Under the pieces are notes generated by a model. It was not told the DNA's origin and searched no databases. It worked only from the letters and a program-made list of their open reading frames with translations. 44,109 nt of DNA from NCBI GenBank assembly GCA_027296625.1, contig JAPUIX010000056.1, positions 1 to 44,109 on the forward strand, given 5' to 3'. A program made the translations under genes and the position numbers. This document shows, piece after piece, positions 3,226 to 43,962 of this stretch. This DNA is from Gammaproteobacteria bacterium. GTDB taxonomy: Bacteria; Pseudomonadota; Gammaproteobacteria; JAKEHO01. Within the stretch, counting starts at the first letter, position 1. Each line of letters begins with the position of its first letter.

Positions 3226-3957
3226 TCAAAACGGGCCGTCTATGTGCCTATCAGAACGCGCATAAACCAAGTCCCATATCCTATGACCCAAACGATGAGC
3301 CCGTTGTTCAAACTTTGTTAGCGGGCGCCACCGCGGCCTTGGCGCAAAGGAACCTCGCCCAGCTAGATTAATGAAGCCCGGATGAGCGTCCAAAATGCCG
3401 AGTATCTCATCAGCATAGGCGTCCAGATCTGTGGCTATATATACGCGTCCGTGTGTCTTGAGTTTCTTTTCTAAAAGGGATGCAAAGGAGGCCCTGATCA
3501 TGCGGCGCTTGTGGTGGCGCTTCTTGGGCCACGGATCAGGAAAAAAGATACACACACCATCAAGGGTTTTAGTCTGAACACAATGTTCGAGAACTTCCAC
3601 CGCATCGTGGCAAACCACGCGCACGTTGGTCAATCCTTCGGCATTCAATCGGTTCAAAAGGCGACCTACGCCCGGCCGATATACTTCGATGGCCAGGTAA
3701 TCATTTTCCGGATGCTCGCGCGCCATGGTTACCGTTGCACTCCCCATACCCGATCCGATATCCAGTATGCGTGGCGCAATGCGGCCAAACAGTTTGTTAA
3801 AGTCAAATGATTTGTCCGCGGGTTCAATACCGTACACATCCCACAGATCATCAAGCGCACGACGCTGCGCTGCCGTGATACGGGAACTATTTCTGCGTAC
3901 GTAGGTTCGGACAGACCGGCGGTGATGAGGTGCCTGAGACTTGTGAGACAACGCCAT
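3226..3957 (-). CDS. trmB: tRNA (guanine-N7-)-methyltransferase TrmB
   Basis: A 243-residue class I SAM methyltransferase that makes m7G at position 46 of the tRNA variable loop. The SAM-binding loop LDIGSGMG (about residues 65-72), the acidic AIEVYRPG segment (about 89-96) and the TrmB signature FFPDPWPKKRHHKRR (about 138-152) are all present. Length is normal, with a basic N-terminal extension of about 50 residues. It follows thiG with a 76-bp gap; the order thiS-thiG-trmB is common in gammaproteobacteria such as Pseudomonas. Confidence 0.95.
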   Translation of the reverse strand: MALSHKSQAPHHRRSVRTYVRRNSSRITAAQRRALDDLWDVYGIEPADKSFDFNKLFGRIAPRILDIGSGMGSATVTMAREHPENDYLAIEVYRPGVGRLLNRLNAEGLTNVRVVCHDAVEVLEHCVQTKTLDGVCIFFPDPWPKKRHHKRRMIRASFASLLEKKLKTHGRVYIATDLDAYADEILGILDAHPGFINLAGRGSFAPRPRWRPLTKFEQRAHRLGHRIWDLVYARSDRHIDGPF

Positions 3958-4033
3958 CCACAGTCACTCTTCAGTATGTCCCTCCCTACCGTATGGCGGG
4001 ATACTTATCCGGGATGTACCTGAGTTACTGTCC

Positions 4034-4840
4034 CTATTCAAAAAAGCTTCCGTCGATTGGAGAGGATGCGCTCGCGTAGGCACGTCGTGGCATGCGGCCC
4101 GCAAGATAGGCGCAACGACCTGCTTCAATTGCTTGTTTCATCGCCGTCGCCATCAATATGGGATTCTTTGCCTGTGCAATAGCCGTGTTCATTAACACGC
4201 CATCACAGCCGAGTTCCATCGCGATGGTTGCATCGGACGCTGTCCCAACACCGGCATCCACCAAAATTGGTACTTGGGCATTTTCGACGATAGTTCTTAT
4301 ATTATACCTATTGCGGATACCAAGCCCCGAACCAATCGGCGCTGCAAGGGGCATAACAGCCACACAACCCATTTGCTCTAGTCGAATAGCACTAACCGGG
4401 TCGTCGGTTGTATATACCATTACCTTGAAGCCCTCCTCGATAAGAATCTTAGCCGCCACGAGTGTTTCGGGAATGTCTGGAAAGAGTGTCTTTTCATCGC
4501 CCAGTACTTCAAGTTTGACCAAATCGTGTCCCCCCAACAATTCACGCGCCAGCATACATGTGCGTATGGCTGTTTTAGCGTCATAGCAACCCGCGGTGTT
4601 AGGGAGGATAGTGTACTTCCCCGGTGGGAGCTCATCGAGAAGATTCGGTTGATCCGGATCCTGACCTATGTTGGTCCGACGGATCGCCACCGTCACAATC
4701 TGTGCCCCACTTGCTTCTACTGCAAGGCGAGTCTGTGTCAGATCGCGGTACTTACCTGTCCCAATCAACAGGCGAGACCGATAGGTCACGCCTTCAATAA
4801 TCAAGGGGTCGTCGGCCACTAGCGGATTATTTTCTGTCAT
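4034..4840 (-). CDS. thiG: thiazole synthase ThiG
   Basis: A 268-residue TIM-barrel enzyme that condenses 1-deoxy-D-xylulose 5-phosphate, dehydroglycine and ThiS-thiocarboxylate sulfur into the thiazole phosphate of thiamine. Conserved blocks include IGTGKY (about residues 26-31), [10 protein letters not shown] (about 79-88), [10 protein letters not shown] (about 106-115, with the expected Schiff-base lysine near 109) and [11 protein letters not shown] near the C terminus. It lies directly downstream of thiS, its sulfur donor, in the same direction. I saw no TPP riboswitch signature upstream of thiS. Confidence 0.96.
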
Positions 4841-4894
4841 AGACTGATATGTGGCAAGTTGAACTTAAAAAAGTATACCGTGCGGATTGGCCGT

Positions 4895-5092
4895 CTAACC
4901 ACCGCCGATGGCATGTACAATCTCGACTCGATCATTGCTCTGAAGGGAGTAGGCCTCGAACCGACTTCGCGGTACGATCTCCTCGTTGACTTCCACCGCC
5001 AATCTGCCGCTGATGTCCAATTTTTGTAGAAGATCGGCGATGGTGCATTGATCGGGCACCGTGCGCCTATCGCCATTAACGATGATTTTCAT
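4895..5092 (-). CDS. thiS: sulfur carrier protein ThiS
   Basis: A 65-residue ubiquitin-fold protein ending in IGGG, the C-terminal diglycine type tail that is adenylated and then carries a thiocarboxylate for thiazole formation. The opening MKIIVNG and the segment VEVNEEIVPRSRF are typical of ThiS. The start is the ATG at 5092. It is followed by thiG after 54 bp, forming the minimal thiS-thiG pair. The adenylating enzyme ThiF is not in the window. Confidence 0.93.
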   Translation of the reverse strand: MKIIVNGDRRTVPDQCTIADLLQKLDISGRLAVEVNEEIVPRSRFEAYSLQSNDRVEIVHAIGGG

Positions 5093-5182
5093 CGAGGCAG
5101 ACTCAATGAATTGTATTGAAAATTAGAGATGATTGCCGGACGAATAGGTGACGTCTCATTCAATCCTAAGACATCTTTTTAA

Positions 5183-6094
5183 TCAAACTAGATCGACGAC
5201 GACTCCCTCCCTGGCAATATGACACTCGATCGACGAACCACGTTCACGAACTATTTCACGACAATGTTGATGAATCGCGTCTATATCTTCATCTGTGTAG
5301 TTTGGATCGTGATGGTAAAGATAGAGATGCTGGACATTCGCATCGATCGCAAAGTTAACCGTATCAACGTAGCATGAATGGCCCCAACTGCGCTTCTTTT
5401 CATAGTCGGCCGGCGTATATTGGGCATCATGGATGAGAATATCTGCATTACTGATCAAGCCTCGTTCGATGTCACGCTCTTCTTGTTTCATCTTATCAAG
5501 TAATGCCCGCTCTTCTTCATTAAACTCCTGATAACGCTGATTAATGGACTTTTCTACAACAAAGCATTCGTTATCAGAAATATATACGACTGTTTTTCCA
5601 CAGACGCGAATTCGATAGCCATAGGTAATGCCTGGATGATGAACGTTATTATAGGTTATCGCGATGGTTCCATGTTCAATTGCGCCATCCTCCGGATCCA
5701 TATATTCGACATTGGCCATCCAGTGCTCTGTCTCTACGGGGAAGTAAGGCGCTCGCATCTGGGCGGCAAGCTGTTCCGCGATATCCTTAGTAGATTGACC
5801 CGGCCCGAAAATCTTGATGTTCCAATCCTTCATAAACGCTGGCATGAAAAATGGAAGCCCGCAGATATGATCCCAATGATAATGCGTAAGGATTAGCATG
5901 AGATTACGGACCGTGTCTTGAGCTACTATCGCATTGCCAAAGGGAATAATGCCAGTACCGGCATCACAAACAAGAATGTCATCACCTACGCGGATTTCCA
6001 CACATGAAGTGTTGCCGCCAACCTTCATATGGGATGCGAAAGGTGCTGTATAGGAACCCCTCACACCCCAAAACCGGATATAGGCGTTATCCAT
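5183..6094 (-). CDS. MBL-fold metal-dependent hydrolase
   Basis: A 303-residue metallo-beta-lactamase-fold protein. The start RFWGVRGS and the segment GGNTSCVEI resemble the PhnP / cyclic-nucleotide phosphodiesterase-like branch. The metal-binding HxHxDH motif is seen as HYHWDH (residues 71-76), and further metal ligands are expected in the VHHPG and SDNE segments. The family hydrolyses phosphodiesters or other esters; the substrate cannot be told here. Its start lies 8 bases inside the upstream response regulator gene, so the two are one transcription unit. No signal peptide is present, so it should be cytoplasmic. Confidence 0.82.
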   Translation of the reverse strand: MDNAYIRFWGVRGSYTAPFASHMKVGGNTSCVEIRVGDDILVCDAGTGIIPFGNAIVAQDTVRNLMLILTHYHWDHICGLPFFMPAFMKDWNIKIFGPGQSTKDIAEQLAAQMRAPYFPVETEHWMANVEYMDPEDGAIEHGTIAITYNNVHHPGITYGYRIRVCGKTVVYISDNECFVVEKSINQRYQEFNEEERALLDKMKQEERDIERGLISNADILIHDAQYTPADYEKKRSWGHSCYVDTVNFAIDANVQHLYLYHHDPNYTDEDIDAIHQHCREIVRERGSSIECHIAREGVVVDLV

Positions 6095-6497
6095 GTGATG
6101 AGTTATGGGCTCGTTTCATATTTGCGTTTGTGTATTTGACGATCAGATCCCTTATGGCCTGCATGCCCACGGGCTTAACCACAAATTCGAGAGCGCCCAG
6201 TTCCTTTGCCACAGATCTGTCCTGAGCATAGTCCTTGGTGCTTATGATGACCACGGGCGTTTTCCGATGGAGAGGGTTGTTCCTAAGTTGCTGCAAAAAA
6301 GTCAAGCCGTCTTTCTCAGGCATGATATTGTCCAGAAATAGCAGCTCAGGCTGAGTCGTCGCGAGATACGACATGGACTCAGCCGCCGACCCGAAGGTTT
6401 CAAGCTCAATGTTTAATGACGCACTACTGCGCTCGAACATGGATCGTACACTCCAAGTATCATCCACCACGACGACTATTGGCACGGAGTTTCCCAT
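6087..6497 (-). CDS. single-domain response regulator (CheY-like receiver)
   Basis: About 136 residues forming one receiver domain with no output domain. From the ATG at 6497, the acidic pair is at about residues 12-13 (VVDD), the phospho-acceptor aspartate at about 56 (LFLDNIMP), and the conserved lysine at about 108 (VVKPV). The frame can extend two codons to a TTG at 6503, but the ATG is more likely. The end overlaps the start of the MBL hydrolase by 8 bases. No histidine kinase gene is nearby, so the phosphate donor is unknown. Confidence 0.88.
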   Translation of the reverse strand: MGNSVPIVVVVDDTWSVRSMFERSSASLNIELETFGSAAESMSYLATTQPELLFLDNIMPEKDGLTFLQQLRNNPLHRKTPVVIISTKDYAQDRSVAKELGALEFVVKPVGMQAIRDLIVKYTNANMKRAHNSSHG

Positions 6498-6856
6498 GAT
6501 CAACTTATAGCCTTCCGTCGCACTCAGCAGCAGAGTAGCACTGAAGCGGGTTCAATAATCAACAATCAACGTATGTTAATAATTTAAAAAGGGTTTTTCT
6601 ATTTCTTCTCTGTGACCCCACATGAGGATTGGCAAACCAGTCACACCCTGCACCAGAATCGCTCGTAACATCGCAATATTACACTAAATTTTGGCGCGCG
6701 CCAGCGACGGACTGGGCGTCACGGCTCCTCTGGTGGTGTGCTTGACTGGCAAGGATCGCACCAAGAACGTAACCATTACATCATGCGCGTCGTCTCAGCT
6801 CTACGCACTCCTTTTGTTCCTAATCACCTACCCTGAATCCAGCAAATAGCCAAATT

Positions 6857-7012: not shown

Positions 7013-7086
7013 GCGGGTGTAGTTCAATGGTAGAACATCAGCTTCCCAAGCTGAGAACGTGGGTTCGATCCCCATCACCCGCTCCA
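7013..7086 (+). tRNA. glyU: tRNA-Gly(CCC)
   Basis: A full cloverleaf of 74 bases. The acceptor stem GCGGGTG pairs with CACCCGC, followed by discriminator T and an encoded CCA (7084-7086). The D arm is GTTC..GAAC. The anticodon stem TCAGC / GCTGA encloses loop TTCCCAA with anticodon CCC at 7045-7047, and the T arm carries GGTTCGATCC. It closely resembles E. coli glyU. It reads GGG glycine codons. No obvious terminator follows within 100 bases. Confidence 0.97.
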
Positions 7087-7229: not shown

Positions 7230-7970
7230 TTAGCTGCAATACCGTGTTAGGGCACTTGAGTTTTCCTTAGGGACGAAAACAAAGTCGATAAGAGCTTTCT
7301 TATGCATTGAATTTCGCAGTAGATTGTACTTCGATACTGGAGCAAATCCCTGCTTATAGAAACAAAAACCGTCGTACTCCAGACTAATCAGATAGGAAAA
7401 CACATTGCATTCTGGATCCTGGGCATAGCCACATTCAAACAATAAGTCAGGACGATCTTCTTGCAGTATCTGTTTTCCGCCTTGAAATACGTCGTATTCA
7501 TGTCCCTCCACATCACATTTGATAAATCTTATCGGTCGAGCATCGTGATTTTGGAAGTAGCTGTCTAGTGTAGTTACCGCAACCTTGAGGCTATCAAGCT
7601 GCCCATTCGGGCGCCACTCCATGCTTGCCCCACCCCAATGGTGTTTAGGGCGAAGTAATTCTTTTTCTCCAATAACAGATGATAGGGCAATATTTGCGAT
7701 TTCTAGTTGAGTAAGCCTCAAACTATTTCTCGCTTGCTCTAGGTATGCCACTAGTTCGGGCTGAAGTTCAAAGGCGATCACAAATCCCTGAGACCCTACT
7801 TTTTTGTGCATTCAATAAGAATAGACGCCACGATTAGCACCTATGTCTACAGCGGTTTTGCCTTCTAATTCACGGCTTAAGAGAAATGATGTGCCATATG
7901 TATCGGCATATAAACGAAAACGCCACGCGCGATAAAGAAACCTTAACTTCTCAAAAAAGCTCACGTTCAT
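7230..7970 (-). pseudogene. FkbM-family methyltransferase interrupted by an in-frame TGA
   Basis: Read without interruption, the frame from the ATG at 7968-7970 to the stop at 7230 would give about 245 residues of an FkbM-type SAM methyltransferase. The SAM-binding motif VDIGANRGVYSY lies before an in-frame TGA at 7812-7814 (codon 53). The same frame continues with MHKKVGSQGFVIAFE, the expected next segment of the family, then FIKCDVEGHEYDVFQGG and LLFECG. The ATG right after the TGA would give a 193-residue protein lacking the glycine-rich SAM loop. A single base change (for example TGG to TGA) explains it. Such enzymes usually O-methylate sugars or similar groups. It is followed downstream by the tRNA on the other strand. 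Confidence 0.8.
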
Positions 7971-8139: not shown

Positions 8140-8952
8140 TTATGGACCGCCCTCGCTTGGCAAAAGGGCGATCGCCCGCACTGGGCCGCCAGACCCGCCC
8201 TCGATCTTCATGGGTAACGCAATGACGACAGCGCCCCGGGCAGGGAGCCTTTCGAGATTAGCGAGGTTCTCAAGACCCAACACATTATTTTCCGCCGCAA
8301 GCCGATGTACGGGAAAATCCTTTGATTTCCCATAATCAATTGACGCGACGTCAGCACCCAGGACCGAAACCTTCCTCTCTCCCACCAGCAGCCGCGCCGC
8401 CGCCTCCCCGTAACCAGGAAAGTGCAACTTGGACACGTCACCGGGCGTATCATCACCCAGGTAGGCCTTACGATCAGGCCAAAATTCCCCCCATCCTGTG
8501 CGAAGCAGGACAATCGTACCGGGTTCTATCACCCCATGCTTCGCCTCAAACTCAAGCACGTCTTGCCGGGTGAGTCGATAATCCCGATCGATCGCAGCCT
8601 GCGTTGAAACATCGATCACAACCGCATGCGCCATGAACTGCTGAAGTGGAATTTGGTCTGTCGTCCGTTGTCCTTCAGAAAAGTGAATCGGCGAATCAAG
8701 ATGCGTGCCACCGTGCTCCGGGGCACAGATGGCGTAGGCGGCATAAAAGTAACCTTTATCCGTTTGCCCATAAGCAAGCTTTTTCAGTTCGAAAGTTGTG
8801 GGTGCGGTTGGCCAGTAAATCGTCTCCTCATTAAACGCATACGTAAGATCTATCAAGTGAAATTTGCTCGGATTGAATGTATCCGCTGGTGATATGTGAG
8901 GCGCTGCCATCAACAATATGCTAATGACAAAAGCACAAATATCACGGTTCAT
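8140..8952 (-). CDS. exported cyclase-family (kynurenine formamidase-like) hydrolase
   Basis: A 270-residue protein from the ATG at 8952, chosen because GGGAGG lies 6 bases upstream; a longer frame to 8985 has no such site. Residues 1-24 form a signal peptide, so the enzyme should be periplasmic or secreted. The cyclase-family metal motif HGGTHLDSPIHF (about residues 80-91) matches the HxGTHxDxPxHF signature of the Mn/Zn-dependent hydrolases that include KynB and isatin hydrolase. A C-terminal segment rich in small residues (GGSGGP) is also typical. The substrate is not deducible; tryptophan degradation genes are absent here, and most known relatives are cytoplasmic. Confidence 0.85.
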   Translation of the reverse strand: MNRDICAFVISILLMAAPHISPADTFNPSKFHLIDLTYAFNEETIYWPTAPTTFELKKLAYGQTDKGYFYAAYAICAPEHGGTHLDSPIHFSEGQRTTDQIPLQQFMAHAVVIDVSTQAAIDRDYRLTRQDVLEFEAKHGVIEPGTIVLLRTGWGEFWPDRKAYLGDDTPGDVSKLHFPGYGEAAARLLVGERKVSVLGADVASIDYGKSKDFPVHRLAAENNVLGLENLANLERLPARGAVVIALPMKIEGGSGGPVRAIALLPSEGGP

Positions 8953-9088
8953 AGCACACCTCCCAGCAAAATTAGATAGAAACACCCGCTCTGCACTTCA
9001 ACAGACTGGAGACCCAACTCTTCATAGCATCACAATGTCGTTTTACTCTTGAGCACTGAATCGGGTTGGATCGACGCCGTCAGTCACG

Positions 9089-9685
9089 TCAGTCGCGAAA
9101 TCGTGTTTCATCCTCCGTCTTTATCCGCAACATCATGAAATCGAGATCGTTGGCCAACAGACGCTCACGCATTTCGTCCAATCTTGCGAGATGCTTGAAT
9201 GGGCCAATACGGACTCGGTGCCACGTATCCTGGCCATTCATCACGACCCGCTGTATTTCCGCCTGAATGCCCATGGACTCCAATTGCGCCTTGACACGAT
9301 CCGCCTCATCGAGGTTGCGGAACGAGCCCACCTGAATGACATAAATGCCCGGCTGGAGCGGTTTCTCTTGTGCCTGGCCCGCTTCGCCAACCTCCCAGTC
9401 AGGTACCTTGACTTCCATCTCCGGAAGGATCGTGTAGAAATCAAAGCGCGGCTTGGGAGGCGGGGGAAGCGGATCGCTTGTGTCCTTCTGCACCGTACGT
9501 GTGTCCACCGAGCCACTGCTCTCCTGGACCACCGGTTGTTCCACAATCACTGGAGAATGCTGCTTTAAAAACACAATCAATGCGACAAATAAGCCAATGC
9601 CAAGGCCCAGTGCAAACAAGGGCCACTCGTGACCGCGTTTCGGCGACACTTTTCCTTTTGGTACATGTTTATAGTCGCGGGCCAC
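9089..9685 (-). CDS. SPOR-domain inner-membrane protein (FtsN-like)
   Basis: A 198-residue protein with a basic cytoplasmic start (about residues 1-20), one membrane segment (about 21-40), a proline-rich periplasmic linker (about 50-112) and a C-terminal SPOR domain opening with YVIQVGSFRNLDEADRVKA (about 115-133). SPOR domains bind denuded septal peptidoglycan, so a cell-division role is likely. A SPOR/FtsN-like gene next to argS is a common gammaproteobacterial arrangement. The start is a GTG at 9683-9685 that shares one base with the argS stop (TAGTG). Confidence 0.9.
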   Translation of the reverse strand: MARDYKHVPKGKVSPKRGHEWPLFALGLGIGLFVALIVFLKQHSPVIVEQPVVQESSGSVDTRTVQKDTSDPLPPPPKPRFDFYTILPEMEVKVPDWEVGEAGQAQEKPLQPGIYVIQVGSFRNLDEADRVKAQLESMGIQAEIQRVVMNGQDTWHRVRIGPFKHLARLDEMRERLLANDLDFMMLRIKTEDETRFRD

Positions 9686-11427
9686 TACATTACCTCCGGT
9701 GCCGACACACCCAATAGGCTAAGACCATTGTGCAATACTTGGCGCGTTGCGAGAATCAGACTAATACGGGCATTTCGCAACGGCGATGACTCCACCAGGA
9801 ACTGGTGTGTGTTGTAATAGGTGTGAAAGTCATTGGCGAGATCCCGCAGATAGTAGGCAAGCTGATGAGGTTCCTCACCCTGCGCCGCCGACTCAATCAC
9901 TTCGGGATAACGGAACAGCGTGGCCAACAGTGCCTGTTCGTGCTGTTCAGTTAACAACGAAAGATTCCGAGCGCCCTCTTCGGCGTCCCACTTAAGATGC
10001 TTCTGATCCATTTGCTTCATCACACTGCATATCCTTGCATGTGCATATTGGACGTAATACACAGGGTTATCACTGGACTGCGACTTGGCAAGATCAAGAT
10101 CGAAATCCAGGTGCTGGTCGCTCTTCCGCAACACGTAGAAAAATCGCGCAGCATCACAGCCCACCTCTTCACGCAACTCTCTGAGGGTCACAAACTCACC
10201 AGCGCGGGTAGACATTTGGACTTTCTTTCCTCCCCGATAGAGGGATACGAACTGTATAAGCAAGACATCCAACTTGCCAGGGCCTTCACCCATTGCAGCA
10301 ATTGCTGCCTTCAGTCTCGGCACATAGCCATGATGATCTGCGCCCCATACATCGATAATCCGGCCAAAGCCTCTTTCTAATTTGTTCAGGTGATAGGCGG
10401 TATCTAAGGCAAAGTAGGTAGGCTGGCCATTTTCGCGAATCACGACACGATCTTTTTCATCGTGGAACTTTTTGGCACTGAACCATCGGGCACCACCTTT
10501 TTCATAAATATGTTCGCCAAGGCGATTGATTACTTGATCGACCGCCTTACTATCGACTAGCTCATGCTCATAAAACCATGTATCAAACTCAACGCCGAAT
10601 GCAGCGAGATCATCTCGGATATCTTCTAAAATTATTTGAACTGCTAAATCAGTTACCTTGCGAAAGGCATTTTTTCCAATAAGTCTCCCAGCCTGCTCCA
10701 CCAACCGATCCAGTTGTGCTTCCACGTCCATGTCCGGCGTGATGACGCCCATTACAGCGTCCGCAGAGTGACAAAGCGATTTTCCATCTCGCTCGTAGAG
10801 CGTTGCGGCGATCTCTTTTATATACTCGCCTTGATACGCATTGGGTGGAAACGCGATATCTTCACCGCATTTCTCTAGATAGCGCAGCCATACACTGAGC
10901 GCCAGGATGCCCGTCTGCCGCCCAGCATCATTGACATAATATTCGCGCTGCACGGTAAAACCGATGGCCTCCAGCAGATTCGCCACAGTGGACCCATAGG
11001 CCGCACCCCGACCGTGTCCTATGTGCAGCGGGCCTGTGGGATTCGCGGAGACGAATTCGACAACGACCCGTCCGCCCTGCCCATAGTCCGAGCGTCCATA
11101 AGCCTCACCTGCATCCAGAATCTCCTTCGGAATATTTTGAAAGGCGCCGGGTTTGAGAAAGAAATTGATAAATCCCGGTCCGGCAACCTCAATCTTTTCC
11201 ACCAGATCGGAATCAGGTATGGCAGCGGCGATCTTGGCTGCTATATCTCGGGGCTTAAGCTTCGATGCTGCGGCAAGTACCATTGCAATGTTACAGGCAA
11301 AGTCACCATGTTTCGCATCGCGCGTTCGCTCAAGCTGAACCGCGGGTCGATCATCGATACTTAACACTCCATCTTGCTGCAACGTAGCCAAGGCATCCAG
11401 GACCAATCTTTCCAAATTTCGTTTCAA
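9685..11427 (-). CDS. argS: arginyl-tRNA synthetase
   Basis: Class I aminoacyl-tRNA synthetase that charges tRNA-Arg. An N-terminal Add-1 type domain (about residues 1-90) binds the tRNA D-loop. The HIGH motif is in ANPTGPLHIGHGRGA, and the KMSKS position reads VQMSTR, a variant form of the kind known in ArgS enzymes. A C-terminal DALR anticodon-binding domain follows. I chose the TTG at 11425-11427 as start because AAGGG lies 6 bases upstream and the resulting N terminus (KRNLERLVLDAL) aligns with known ArgS starts; the frame extends five codons to another TTG at 11442. The length of about 580 residues is normal. Confidence 0.95.
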   Translation of the reverse strand: MKRNLERLVLDALATLQQDGVLSIDDRPAVQLERTRDAKHGDFACNIAMVLAAASKLKPRDIAAKIAAAIPDSDLVEKIEVAGPGFINFFLKPGAFQNIPKEILDAGEAYGRSDYGQGGRVVVEFVSANPTGPLHIGHGRGAAYGSTVANLLEAIGFTVQREYYVNDAGRQTGILALSVWLRYLEKCGEDIAFPPNAYQGEYIKEIAATLYERDGKSLCHSADAVMGVITPDMDVEAQLDRLVEQAGRLIGKNAFRKVTDLAVQIILEDIRDDLAAFGVEFDTWFYEHELVDSKAVDQVINRLGEHIYEKGGARWFSAKKFHDEKDRVVIRENGQPTYFALDTAYHLNKLERGFGRIIDVWGADHHGYVPRLKAAIAAMGEGPGKLDVLLIQFVSLYRGGKKVQMSTRAGEFVTLRELREEVGCDAARFFYVLRKSDQHLDFDLDLAKSQSSDNPVYYVQYAHARICSVMKQMDQKHLKWDAEEGARNLSLLTEQHEQALLATLFRYPEVIESAAQGEEPHQLAYYLRDLANDFHTYYNTHQFLVESSPLRNARISLILATRQVLHNGLSLLGVSAPEVM

Positions 11428-11579
11428 GTGCAGCCCTTGCAAACAAACGGCACATTGTAACGTGCGCTTTTGTAGTGGAGAAGGTAAATTAGGAGTGCCT
11501 CGCCGTGAGAGCGTGAGGCCCCCTCAGCGATATGTTGGCCCGGCACCAACAATGGCTCAACGTAGCTGCCTGTTCACCA

Positions 11580-19898: not shown

Positions 19899-22031
19899 AT
19901 GACGGTATCGATAGCGTTAAACGATCAAGCGACTACAAACTCGTCAGTTAAGTGGCTTTCGCGCCTTGCCGTGGCAATGTATCTGCTGTGTCTGCACACT
20001 GTCGTCCATTCCGCCGGCAACACCCTGGATAGCATTAGCTACTCAGTACTACCCGGGGATCAGGTGCAGGTAAGACTTAATCTGTCTGTGCCACTGGAGC
20101 AAGAGCCATTGAGCTTCAGCATTGACAATCCGGCCCGCATCGCGCTGGACTTTCCAGACACAAGTCTGAATCTGGAGGCAAAGAGTCAGGCTATCGGTGT
20201 CGGCATGGCCCATAGTGTGGTAGCGGTCGAGGCTGGTGGACGTACCCGTGTTGTACTGAATCTCGTACAACTAGTGCCCTATGACCTGCGGGTAGAAGGA
20301 AATTCCGTGGTGCTCACCCTACAGACAGTGGAACTCGTCGCAACCGGTCTCCCTGCGAAAATCGAGGCCGCCGGGCCAGCCCGGATGCCCGTGGGCATGG
20401 CAGGTATCGACAAGATCGACTTCCGCCGTGGCGATCAGGGCGAAGGTAGAGTAATCGTCACCCTCACGGATCCCTCCATCGGCATTAACCTGGATCAGGA
20501 AGCCGGCAACATCATCATCGATTTCCTGGACACCTCACTCCCGGAAGAGCTCGATCGACGTCTCAACGTAATCGACTTTGCAACACCGGTCAAGGAAATC
20601 GATACCTCACCACTCGGCAATGGAGCCCGTATGGTCATCACCACAACGACTGAGAACTACGACTACCTCTCCTATCAGACGGACAAAATATTCACAGTCG
20701 AGGTCAAGCCACTCACCCCGGCACAGAAGGAAGCGATCAGAAAGGAAAAATTTGGTTACACGGGAGAGCGCTTGTCGTTTAACTTCCAGAACATCGAGGT
20801 GCGCGCGGTACTCCAGCTTATCGCCGATTTTACAGGCCTCAATATGGTGGCGAGCGATACCGTCACAGGCAATATAACGCTCCGCTTGAAGAACGTGCCC
20901 TGGGACCAGGCACTAGACATCATCTTGAAATCGAAAGGTTTGGCTATGCGCAGGGTCGGCAACGTCGTCATGGTTGCCCCTCAGGAAGAGATCGCGGCAC
21001 GCGAGAAACTGGAGCTTGAGGCAGAAAGGCAACTCGAGGAACTGGCTCCCTTGCGGACGGAGTTTATTCAGGTTAACTACGCCAAGGCGTCGGATCTCGC
21101 AGTGCTAATCAAGGCCGAAGCCAACAACCTGCTGTCAGAGCGCGGTAACGTGACTATCGATCAGCGCACCAACATACTTATCGTGCAGGATATCGCAGTA
21201 AACCTCCAAAGCATCCGAGAGATGATCATTAAGCTCGACATCCCGGTGCGACAGGTGCTCATCGAGTCACGCATCGTCAATGCCAGCGAGGACTTTGCCA
21301 AAGACATCGGTGTCCGCTTTGGGCTGGCCGGGCGCACGGAGGATCCCAGCAGGACCAAGACCTTCGCCATCGCGGGCGGAACGGAATTGGGTATATTTGA
21401 GGATCTCGACCCGACCGGGTTCAACACGGCAGGACTTGAGGATTTTATCGTCGACCTGCCTGTTACCGATCCCGCTGGGGCGCTGGGCCTGGTCGTCGGT
21501 AAGGTTGGGACCTGGCTCCTGCAGCTCGAGCTATCCGCGGCGATTGCCGAAGGGCGCACAGAAGACATCGCGAGTCCGAGGGTCATTACGGCAAACCAGC
21601 AAGAGGCCCTCATAGAGACAGGCGAAGAGATTCCGTACCAGGAGGCCACCTCCAGCGGCGCCACCTCGGTGGCGTTCAAGAAGGCGGTCTTGTCGCTGAG
21701 AGTCACGCCCCAGATCACCCCGGACGACCGCGTGCTTTTGGACCTGCAGGTCAACCAGGACACTCGGGGTTCCCCGGAAGTCCTTGGCGTGCCGCCGATC
21801 GATACCAATGAGGTCACCACACAGGTCCTGGTCGACAATGGCGAGACGGTCGTGCTTGGCGGGGTCTACACACAGTTAGACGAGGTGACCATTGATAGAG
21901 TCCCCTGGTTCAGTGACCTGCCGCTCTTTGGTTTCTTGTTCAAGCGGACCCTGACAACAAAGAATCGTTCCGAACTGCTCATCTTCGTGACACCGAAGAT
22001 CCTTAAAGAGACGTTAACCGTAGAGTTGTGA
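19899..22031 (+). CDS. pilQ: type IV pilus secretin PilQ
   Basis: About 710 residues forming the outer-membrane ring through which the pilus passes. After a signal peptide (about residues 20-40) come two AMIN domains (about 45-145 and 165-260) that bind peptidoglycan, an STN/N0 domain near 290-350 (VRAVLQLIADFTGLNMV), an N1/KH-type domain and the secretin barrel (about 480-705) with the VPWFSDLPLFGFLF signature near the end. The ATG at 19899 was chosen because AAAGGGG lies 8 bases upstream; a GTG at 19890 is in the same frame. A strong terminator follows at 22068. Confidence 0.96.
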   Translation: MTVSIALNDQATTNSSVKWLSRLAVAMYLLCLHTVVHSAGNTLDSISYSVLPGDQVQVRLNLSVPLEQEPLSFSIDNPARIALDFPDTSLNLEAKSQAIGVGMAHSVVAVEAGGRTRVVLNLVQLVPYDLRVEGNSVVLTLQTVELVATGLPAKIEAAGPARMPVGMAGIDKIDFRRGDQGEGRVIVTLTDPSIGINLDQEAGNIIIDFLDTSLPEELDRRLNVIDFATPVKEIDTSPLGNGARMVITTTTENYDYLSYQTDKIFTVEVKPLTPAQKEAIRKEKFGYTGERLSFNFQNIEVRAVLQLIADFTGLNMVASDTVTGNITLRLKNVPWDQALDIILKSKGLAMRRVGNVVMVAPQEEIAAREKLELEAERQLEELAPLRTEFIQVNYAKASDLAVLIKAEANNLLSERGNVTIDQRTNILIVQDIAVNLQSIREMIIKLDIPVRQVLIESRIVNASEDFAKDIGVRFGLAGRTEDPSRTKTFAIAGGTELGIFEDLDPTGFNTAGLEDFIVDLPVTDPAGALGLVVGKVGTWLLQLELSAAIAEGRTEDIASPRVITANQQEALIETGEEIPYQEATSSGATSVAFKKAVLSLRVTPQITPDDRVLLDLQVNQDTRGSPEVLGVPPIDTNEVTTQVLVDNGETVVLGGVYTQLDEVTIDRVPWFSDLPLFGFLFKRTLTTKNRSELLIFVTPKILKETLTVEL

Positions 22032-43458: not shown

Positions 43459-43659
43459 TTATTCGGAAGAATAATCTCGATTGTGAATAACATTTTGCTC
43501 AAGCATCATCCATTCAGGTTTTTCTGATGACGAAACCTCAGCTGCTTGGTTTTCTCTGCCAGCCTTGTCATCTTGGTTTTCTCTGCCAGCCTTGTCATCA
43601 CTACATCCGAAAACGATCAGGATTGCGCCTATCAAAACAAGCTTTGTGAACATATTCAT
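43459..43659 (-). CDS. small lipoprotein with duplicated segment
   Basis: About 66 residues from the ATG at 43659, which has GAGAGG 6 bases upstream; the frame reaches back to 43686. A signal peptide ends in the lipobox IVFGC, so the protein should be lipidated. After it the segment DDKAGRENQ occurs twice in direct tandem, encoded by a perfect 27-bp duplication (43545-43598). The rest is polar, and no domain is recognised. Short lipoproteins of this kind are common and mostly uncharacterised. Confidence 0.65.
   Translation of the reverse strand: MNMFTKLVLIGAILIVFGCSDDKAGRENQDDKAGRENQAAEVSSSEKPEWMMLEQNVIHNRDYSSE
43545..43598 (-). repeat. perfect 27-bp tandem duplication
   Basis: Two identical 27-bp units, 43545-43571 and 43572-43598, lie end to end within the small lipoprotein gene. 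The unit is a whole number of codons, so it keeps the frame and adds nine residues. Identity at the DNA level suggests a recent duplication. Confidence 0.95.
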
Positions 43660-43962
43660 GTATTTACCTCTCACGACTCTATCCATCAGTTATAAATTAC
43701 AACAAGCTGATACACTACATGATGGTAATGATTTTCAGTGATTATTTCTATAACTACCTTGTATGATCAACCGGGACGGTGTCAGCTGATTTTCAATAAT
43801 CTCTGGCACTTTTTATTTCGTGACCTCCTCAACAACGGCATCACTTTGGAGCAGGCTGTGATTGATAAAACGTCTATAATCGTTTCACTTAACCCCTCCT
43901 AGTGCGGGGTTTTTTGTCTGTGCTATCATGTTTGTGTCATCTTAAAGAAAGGGGAGCGAGCA
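43660..43962. other. divergent intergenic stretch
   Basis: About 303 bases between two divergent small genes. It holds a TATAAT box (43875-43880) without a good -35 partner, and a plus-strand terminator at 43891-43915 about 50 bases before the last gene. No coding region is evident. The terminator implies a plus-strand transcript ending here that I cannot match to a gene. Confidence 0.5.
43891..43915 (+). terminator. intrinsic terminator without an obvious upstream gene
   Basis: AACCCC and GGGGTT form a 6-bp stem with a 9-base loop, running straight into a T-run. The T-run is on the plus strand only, so it ends plus-strand transcription. The nearest plus-strand gene upstream is the HIG1-like gene about 900 bases away. 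Confidence 0.7.

Follow-up and report, generated by a model that had tools for sequence, protein, structure and literature searches.

Genes of foreign appearance are described as over-represented among prokaryotic pseudogenes (PMC522871), and failed horizontal transfer has been put forward as a source of them (Liu et al. 2004, PMC522871). In Escherichia coli, about half of the inactivated acquired genes are reported to be confined to a single genome (PMC2275313). Horizontal-transfer hotspots are characterized by rapid gene turnover, and 29% of them are reported to contain tRNA or tmRNA genes (PMC5635113).

In this study, we analyzed a methyltransferase gene of the FkbM family (PF05050, Methyltransf_21) in a 44,109-nucleotide stretch of a gammaproteobacterial genome (GenBank assembly GCA_027296625.1, contig JAPUIX010000056.1, positions 1 to 44,109), hereafter referred to as the window. 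The gene shares with the family, and with its nearest relative L021 (61-63% identity), a common domain, length and the conserved residues DIGA, FE.QPE and KCDVEGHE, and once read through it is open over its full length like its relatives. Unlike L021, it carries a stop at codon 53. In its foreign composition, single disablement and absence from the corresponding locus of a congener, it resembles the pseudogenes ascribed to failed transfer (Liu et al. 2004, PMC522871). Its surroundings also resemble the hotspots as outlined in PMC5635113, with variable content amid conserved flanks and a tRNA gene adjacent, but the present case is known from two genomes and no integrase was seen among the ten neighbours scanned. 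Overall, these data make it probable that the locus is an ordinary case of an acquired gene that recently became a nonsense pseudogene in a spot of gene turnover.

Results

The reading frame and its stop

On the minus strand, positions 7970 to 7230 translate in one frame as 52 codons, a TGA, 193 codons and a terminal TAA, with no frameshift and no second stop within the 246-codon frame. The parts of the gene are as follows.

7230..7970, minus strand: putative FkbM (PF05050) methyltransferase pseudogene, 246 codons when read through, then TAA
7812..7814, minus strand: in-frame TGA at codon 53; Trp (61/80) or Tyr (18/80) in relatives, 1/80 uncovered
7815..7970, minus strand: 5' part of 52 codons with the N-terminal helices, first strand, SAM loop (DIGANRG) and half of the next helix
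7230..7811, minus strand: 3' part of 193 codons, starting at the conserved Met54 of the family, without the SAM loop

In a profile search, the read-through frame matched PF05050 over profile positions 1 to 156 of 173 (E 1.7e-18) with a score of 67.7 bits, which exceeds the curated cut-off of 22.7. The 193-codon part alone matched positions 17-156 (55.9 bits, E 7.3e-15), and the 52-codon part alone matched no family. The frame is the sole PF05050 match in the window's own genome (2.42 Mb, 188 contigs). An initial annotation, made from the sequence of the window, had described a single FkbM gene split by one in-frame TGA without a frameshift and a 193-codon remainder devoid of the SAM loop. The translation, the domain matches and an AlphaFold model support both points.

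AlphaFold2 modelled the read-through protein with confidence (mean pLDDT 93.9, pTM 0.92) and placed residue 53 in helix 46-58, which directly follows strand 39-43 and its SAM loop; the TGA therefore parts this SAM-binding first strand and loop from the rest of the domain in mid-helix. The top Foldseek match was a solved FkbM methyltransferase, 2py6 (E 2.4e-07, TM 0.56 by query length), although an rmsd of 11.3 limits the likeness to the family level. The same entry ranked second among the six matches in a sequence search of solved structures. Translation would end after 52 residues; if ribosomes restarted at the ATG next to the stop, the 193-residue product would lack the first strand and the SAM loop. 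Since the confident model puts the stop inside the helix that follows the SAM loop, neither piece is likely to work as an enzyme.

Codon 53 in related proteins

Relatives were obtained by scanning named genomes with the 193-residue part as the query, and the best 80 of 182 were retained. With this query, the top relatives were L021, from a Nitrospirota metagenome-assembled genome (MAG; JAJDBV010000068.1), at 63% identity and L022, from a Planctomycetota MAG, at 61%. The frame of L021 is unbroken and aligns with residues 3-244 of the read-through frame at 61% identity, and so the match is more than chance.

Codon 53 is Trp in 61 of these best 80 of 182 relatives, including all 23 best-scoring ones, and Tyr in 18; the remaining one (L085) does not cover the position. 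A stop was found at codon 53 in none of the 79 covered relatives. The alignment with homologues proposed in the initial annotation thus returned a sense codon in every covered relative, and the gene in the window shows the mark of a pseudogene at this position, i.e., an in-frame stop against a sense codon in intact relatives. The rows with Tyr belong mostly to Woeseiaceae and other Gammaproteobacteria, and the ten of them included in the tree group together on a branch separate from that of the window.

In 16 further homologues of the class, more distant and kept outside the counts for the 80 relatives, codon 53 had other residues and never Trp, which identifies Trp53 as a trait of this subfamily rather than of FkbM proteins in general. 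No match was obtained for L013 and L015 in that comparison; in a later alignment, L013 was read as Ala and L015 again gave no match. Among 369 genomes of the class, 4 match the FkbM protein at E<=1e-30; one of them is the window's own, and the matches in the other three are 34-40% identical and have Trp (two) or Tyr (one) at codon 53.

At least 90% of the 26 rows of an alignment (A1) that contains 25 of the 80 relatives have the Met54 that directly follows the TGA. This family-wide conservation argues against reading the internal ATG as the start codon of a shorter form. Homologues beginning at that ATG, which the initial annotation had named as grounds for abandoning its reading, were not seen: 79 of the 80 relatives align across codon 53, and the 25 in A1 extend upstream of it.

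Age of the break

Identity to L021 was 0.70, 0.79 and 0.47 at the first, second and third codon positions, respectively, with divergence largest at third positions. In a tree of 41 rows, which includes 40 of the 80 relatives, the end branch leading to the window gene measured 0.42 and that of L021 0.49. The excess at third positions, and a window branch no longer than that of L021, suggest that most of the divergence arose under selection and that the break is young. Within the frame, 5.1% of single-base changes give a stop, and the probability of at most one stop is 0.079 at 0.108 neutral changes per site. Under a model that ignores indels and unequal mutation rates, the lone stop in 246 codons therefore makes it unlikely that neutral changes since the loss greatly exceed about 0.1 per site.

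Conserved columns were compared in 77 of the 80 loci (L064, L085 and L087, which are short or cut, were dropped). At 42 columns conserved among Trp-type proteins, the window departs at four, i.e., the stop, Y18F, P69L and G198E; among the 61 other rows, one had five departures and the rest at most three. Without counting the stop, the window thus falls in the ordinary range. A looser test with all 78 rows gave departures at 3 of 49 conserved columns, also ordinary for intact relatives; apart from the stop, conserved positions are not clearly changed more often in the window gene than in the 77 loci. One of the changes, at codon 69 (7764-7766, minus strand), replaces Pro with Leu in the FEPQPE motif, where Pro is present in 98% of Trp-type rows; it may represent early decay.

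Foreign-looking make-up and a variable spot beside tRNA-Gly

The FkbM gene has the lowest GC (0.429) and the lowest GC3 (0.397) among 34 window genes and, by a narrow margin, the poorest codon fit. In the 41-row tree, it pairs with a Nitrospirota gene (support 98/95) within a Planctomycetota-rich set, a placement that sets neither the donor nor the direction of transfer. From composition, tree, the lack of another PF05050 match in the genome and the few strong matches in the class we infer that the gene was acquired horizontally, apparently from another kind of bacterium. Relatives on plasmids (50 records; 26-38% identity among the 10 listed) and phages (20 records; 29-31% identity among the 10 listed) are distant and reveal no mobile carrier. 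Neither the foreign make-up nor the variable spot described below had been mentioned in the initial annotation.

The features around the gene are as follows.

3226..6503, minus strand: PF02390 methyltransferase, thiG, beta-lactamase-fold and response-regulator genes, which make up the conserved flank beyond the tRNA
7013..7086, plus strand: tRNA-Gly(CCC), with its 3' end towards the variable spot; a copy was found in the congener
8140..8985, minus strand: putative cyclase (PF04199), intact in the window and a decayed remnant in the congener
9089..11442, minus strand: SPOR-domain gene and argS; conserved flank common to the congener

The spot was compared with one genome, G001, the sole congener returned by the relatives search. 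Window positions 3254-6567 match its contig C68 (17277-20593) at 76%. C68 ends at 20887 and contig C71 at 46560, both inside this tRNA-Gly, and the two contigs are probably adjacent. From the tRNA on, C71 carries an outer-membrane barrel gene of 518 codons (PF13505), a stop-interrupted remnant of the cyclase gene, the SPOR-domain gene and argS. A further 91% match to tRNA-Gly lies near the start of contig C92; the G001 assembly may thus break at this tRNA because it is repeated.

No FkbM match was found at the corresponding spot of G001 at E<=1, and FkbM matches elsewhere in that genome are 26-30% identical. Syntenic flanks with different content in G001 indicate that the spot between the 3' end of the tRNA and SPOR-argS has turned over, and the flanks shared with G001 on both sides also disfavour a mis-joined contig at the tRNA. 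Another gene at this spot, the cyclase, has decayed in the sister genome; its remnant there (L107:4239-4471) is C-terminal only and interrupted by stops, and its counterpart in the window is intact.

No sign of an integrated element bounded by the tRNA turned up: the 3' end of the tRNA has no second copy in the window with up to 3 mismatches, and there is no integrase among the ten neighbours scanned. An old tRNA-associated element could have since lost its integrase and repeat.

Probable role of the intact gene

In the Nitrospirota MAG, L021 resides in a sugar cluster with a DegT aminotransferase, two more FkbM genes, an epimerase/dehydratase, a GT2 gene and phosphomannomutase, and this cluster points to a glycan substrate for the intact form. 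The stretch L021:2370-5579 of this MAG holds three genes with FkbM domains and, among them, a single epimerase gene. The initial annotation had noted that such enzymes often modify surface glycans. This role is plausible from the neighbourhood of L021, and by analogy a sugar or surface glycan was the probable methylation substrate of the intact ancestor; in contrast to L021, however, the window gene has no glycan gene among its ten scanned neighbours.

Discussion

The initial annotation had listed very recent gene loss as one possibility, and this is now the likely one, given a single stop in an otherwise open frame and relatives that all have a sense codon at position 53 where covered. An FkbM-type SAM-dependent methyltransferase gene would have been acquired horizontally into the spot between tRNA-Gly(CCC) and cyclase-SPOR-argS, and a nonsense substitution at codon 53 would then have recently inactivated it. 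On this reading, the base call at 7812-7814 should be correct, the stop would be fixed or common in the population, and the locus would yield no active enzyme.

One base suffices to explain the break and the remaining frame lacks clear decay, so that a sequencing or assembly (consensus) error in a gene that the organism itself carries intact has to be weighed, particularly as the 188-contig genome is probably a metagenome assembly. Consensus substitution errors of this kind are generally rare, however, and internal stops occurred in none of 30 ABC_tran matches of the window's genome and in 1 of 25 of G001; the gene is also foreign-looking and sits in a spot where loss is expected, and we consider such an error unlikely. 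Coexistence of intact and broken alleles, as a population polymorphism or an on/off variant, would fit a loss that appears young, and single-genome inactivation of the kind described for acquired genes of E. coli (PMC2275313) agrees with it. The on/off variation suggested in the initial annotation found no mechanism in the sequence: no tandem repeat was detected in or near the FkbM gene, and the one imperfect inverted repeat that touches the stop (17 nt, 76% complementary, arms 127 nt apart) is taken as chance. As nothing at the stop, whether a tandem repeat or a strong inverted one, suggests a switching mechanism, coexisting alleles appear improbable. Elsewhere in the window, a small lipoprotein-like frame (43459-43686, minus strand) contains a perfect 27-bp tandem duplication (43545-43599) that encodes a nine-residue stretch twice.

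A split but working enzyme, in which translation stops at the TGA, resumes at the next codon, ATG, and yields pieces of 52 and 193 residues that assemble, is suggested by the ATG immediately after the stop and by the open 193-codon frame. Yet that ATG is the conserved Met54, and any such nonsense change would give this layout; no Shine-Dalgarno-like sequence precedes it by eye, the cut falls mid-helix in the SAM-binding fold of the model, and none of the 79 covered relatives shares the stop, all of which renders a split enzyme very improbable. Recoding of the TGA as Trp or selenocysteine, with Trp the commonest codon-53 residue in relatives, is harder still to credit. Release factor 2 (prfB) is intact in the genome, TGA ends 20 of the 33 open frames taken as window genes, and TGG is used 153 times among 12,524 window codons. 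One sequence (L115, C65:30028-30118) passes the Rfam tRNA-Sec threshold, with 47.3 against 47 bits; it is the sole such match in the genome, is called tRNA-Ser(CGA) by ARAGORN, and was rejected as a false positive. The view of the initial annotation that recoding is unlikely is upheld by these observations, and even when combined, a split enzyme and recoding leave very little probability.

The preferred reading, inactivation of an acquired gene by one nonsense change, opens no long-standing question. It matters for annotation, where the 193-codon remainder ought not to be labelled a functional methyltransferase. The locus would provide a clean, small example of the failure of an acquired gene: foreign-looking, in a variable spot by a tRNA, and broken by a single nonsense change.
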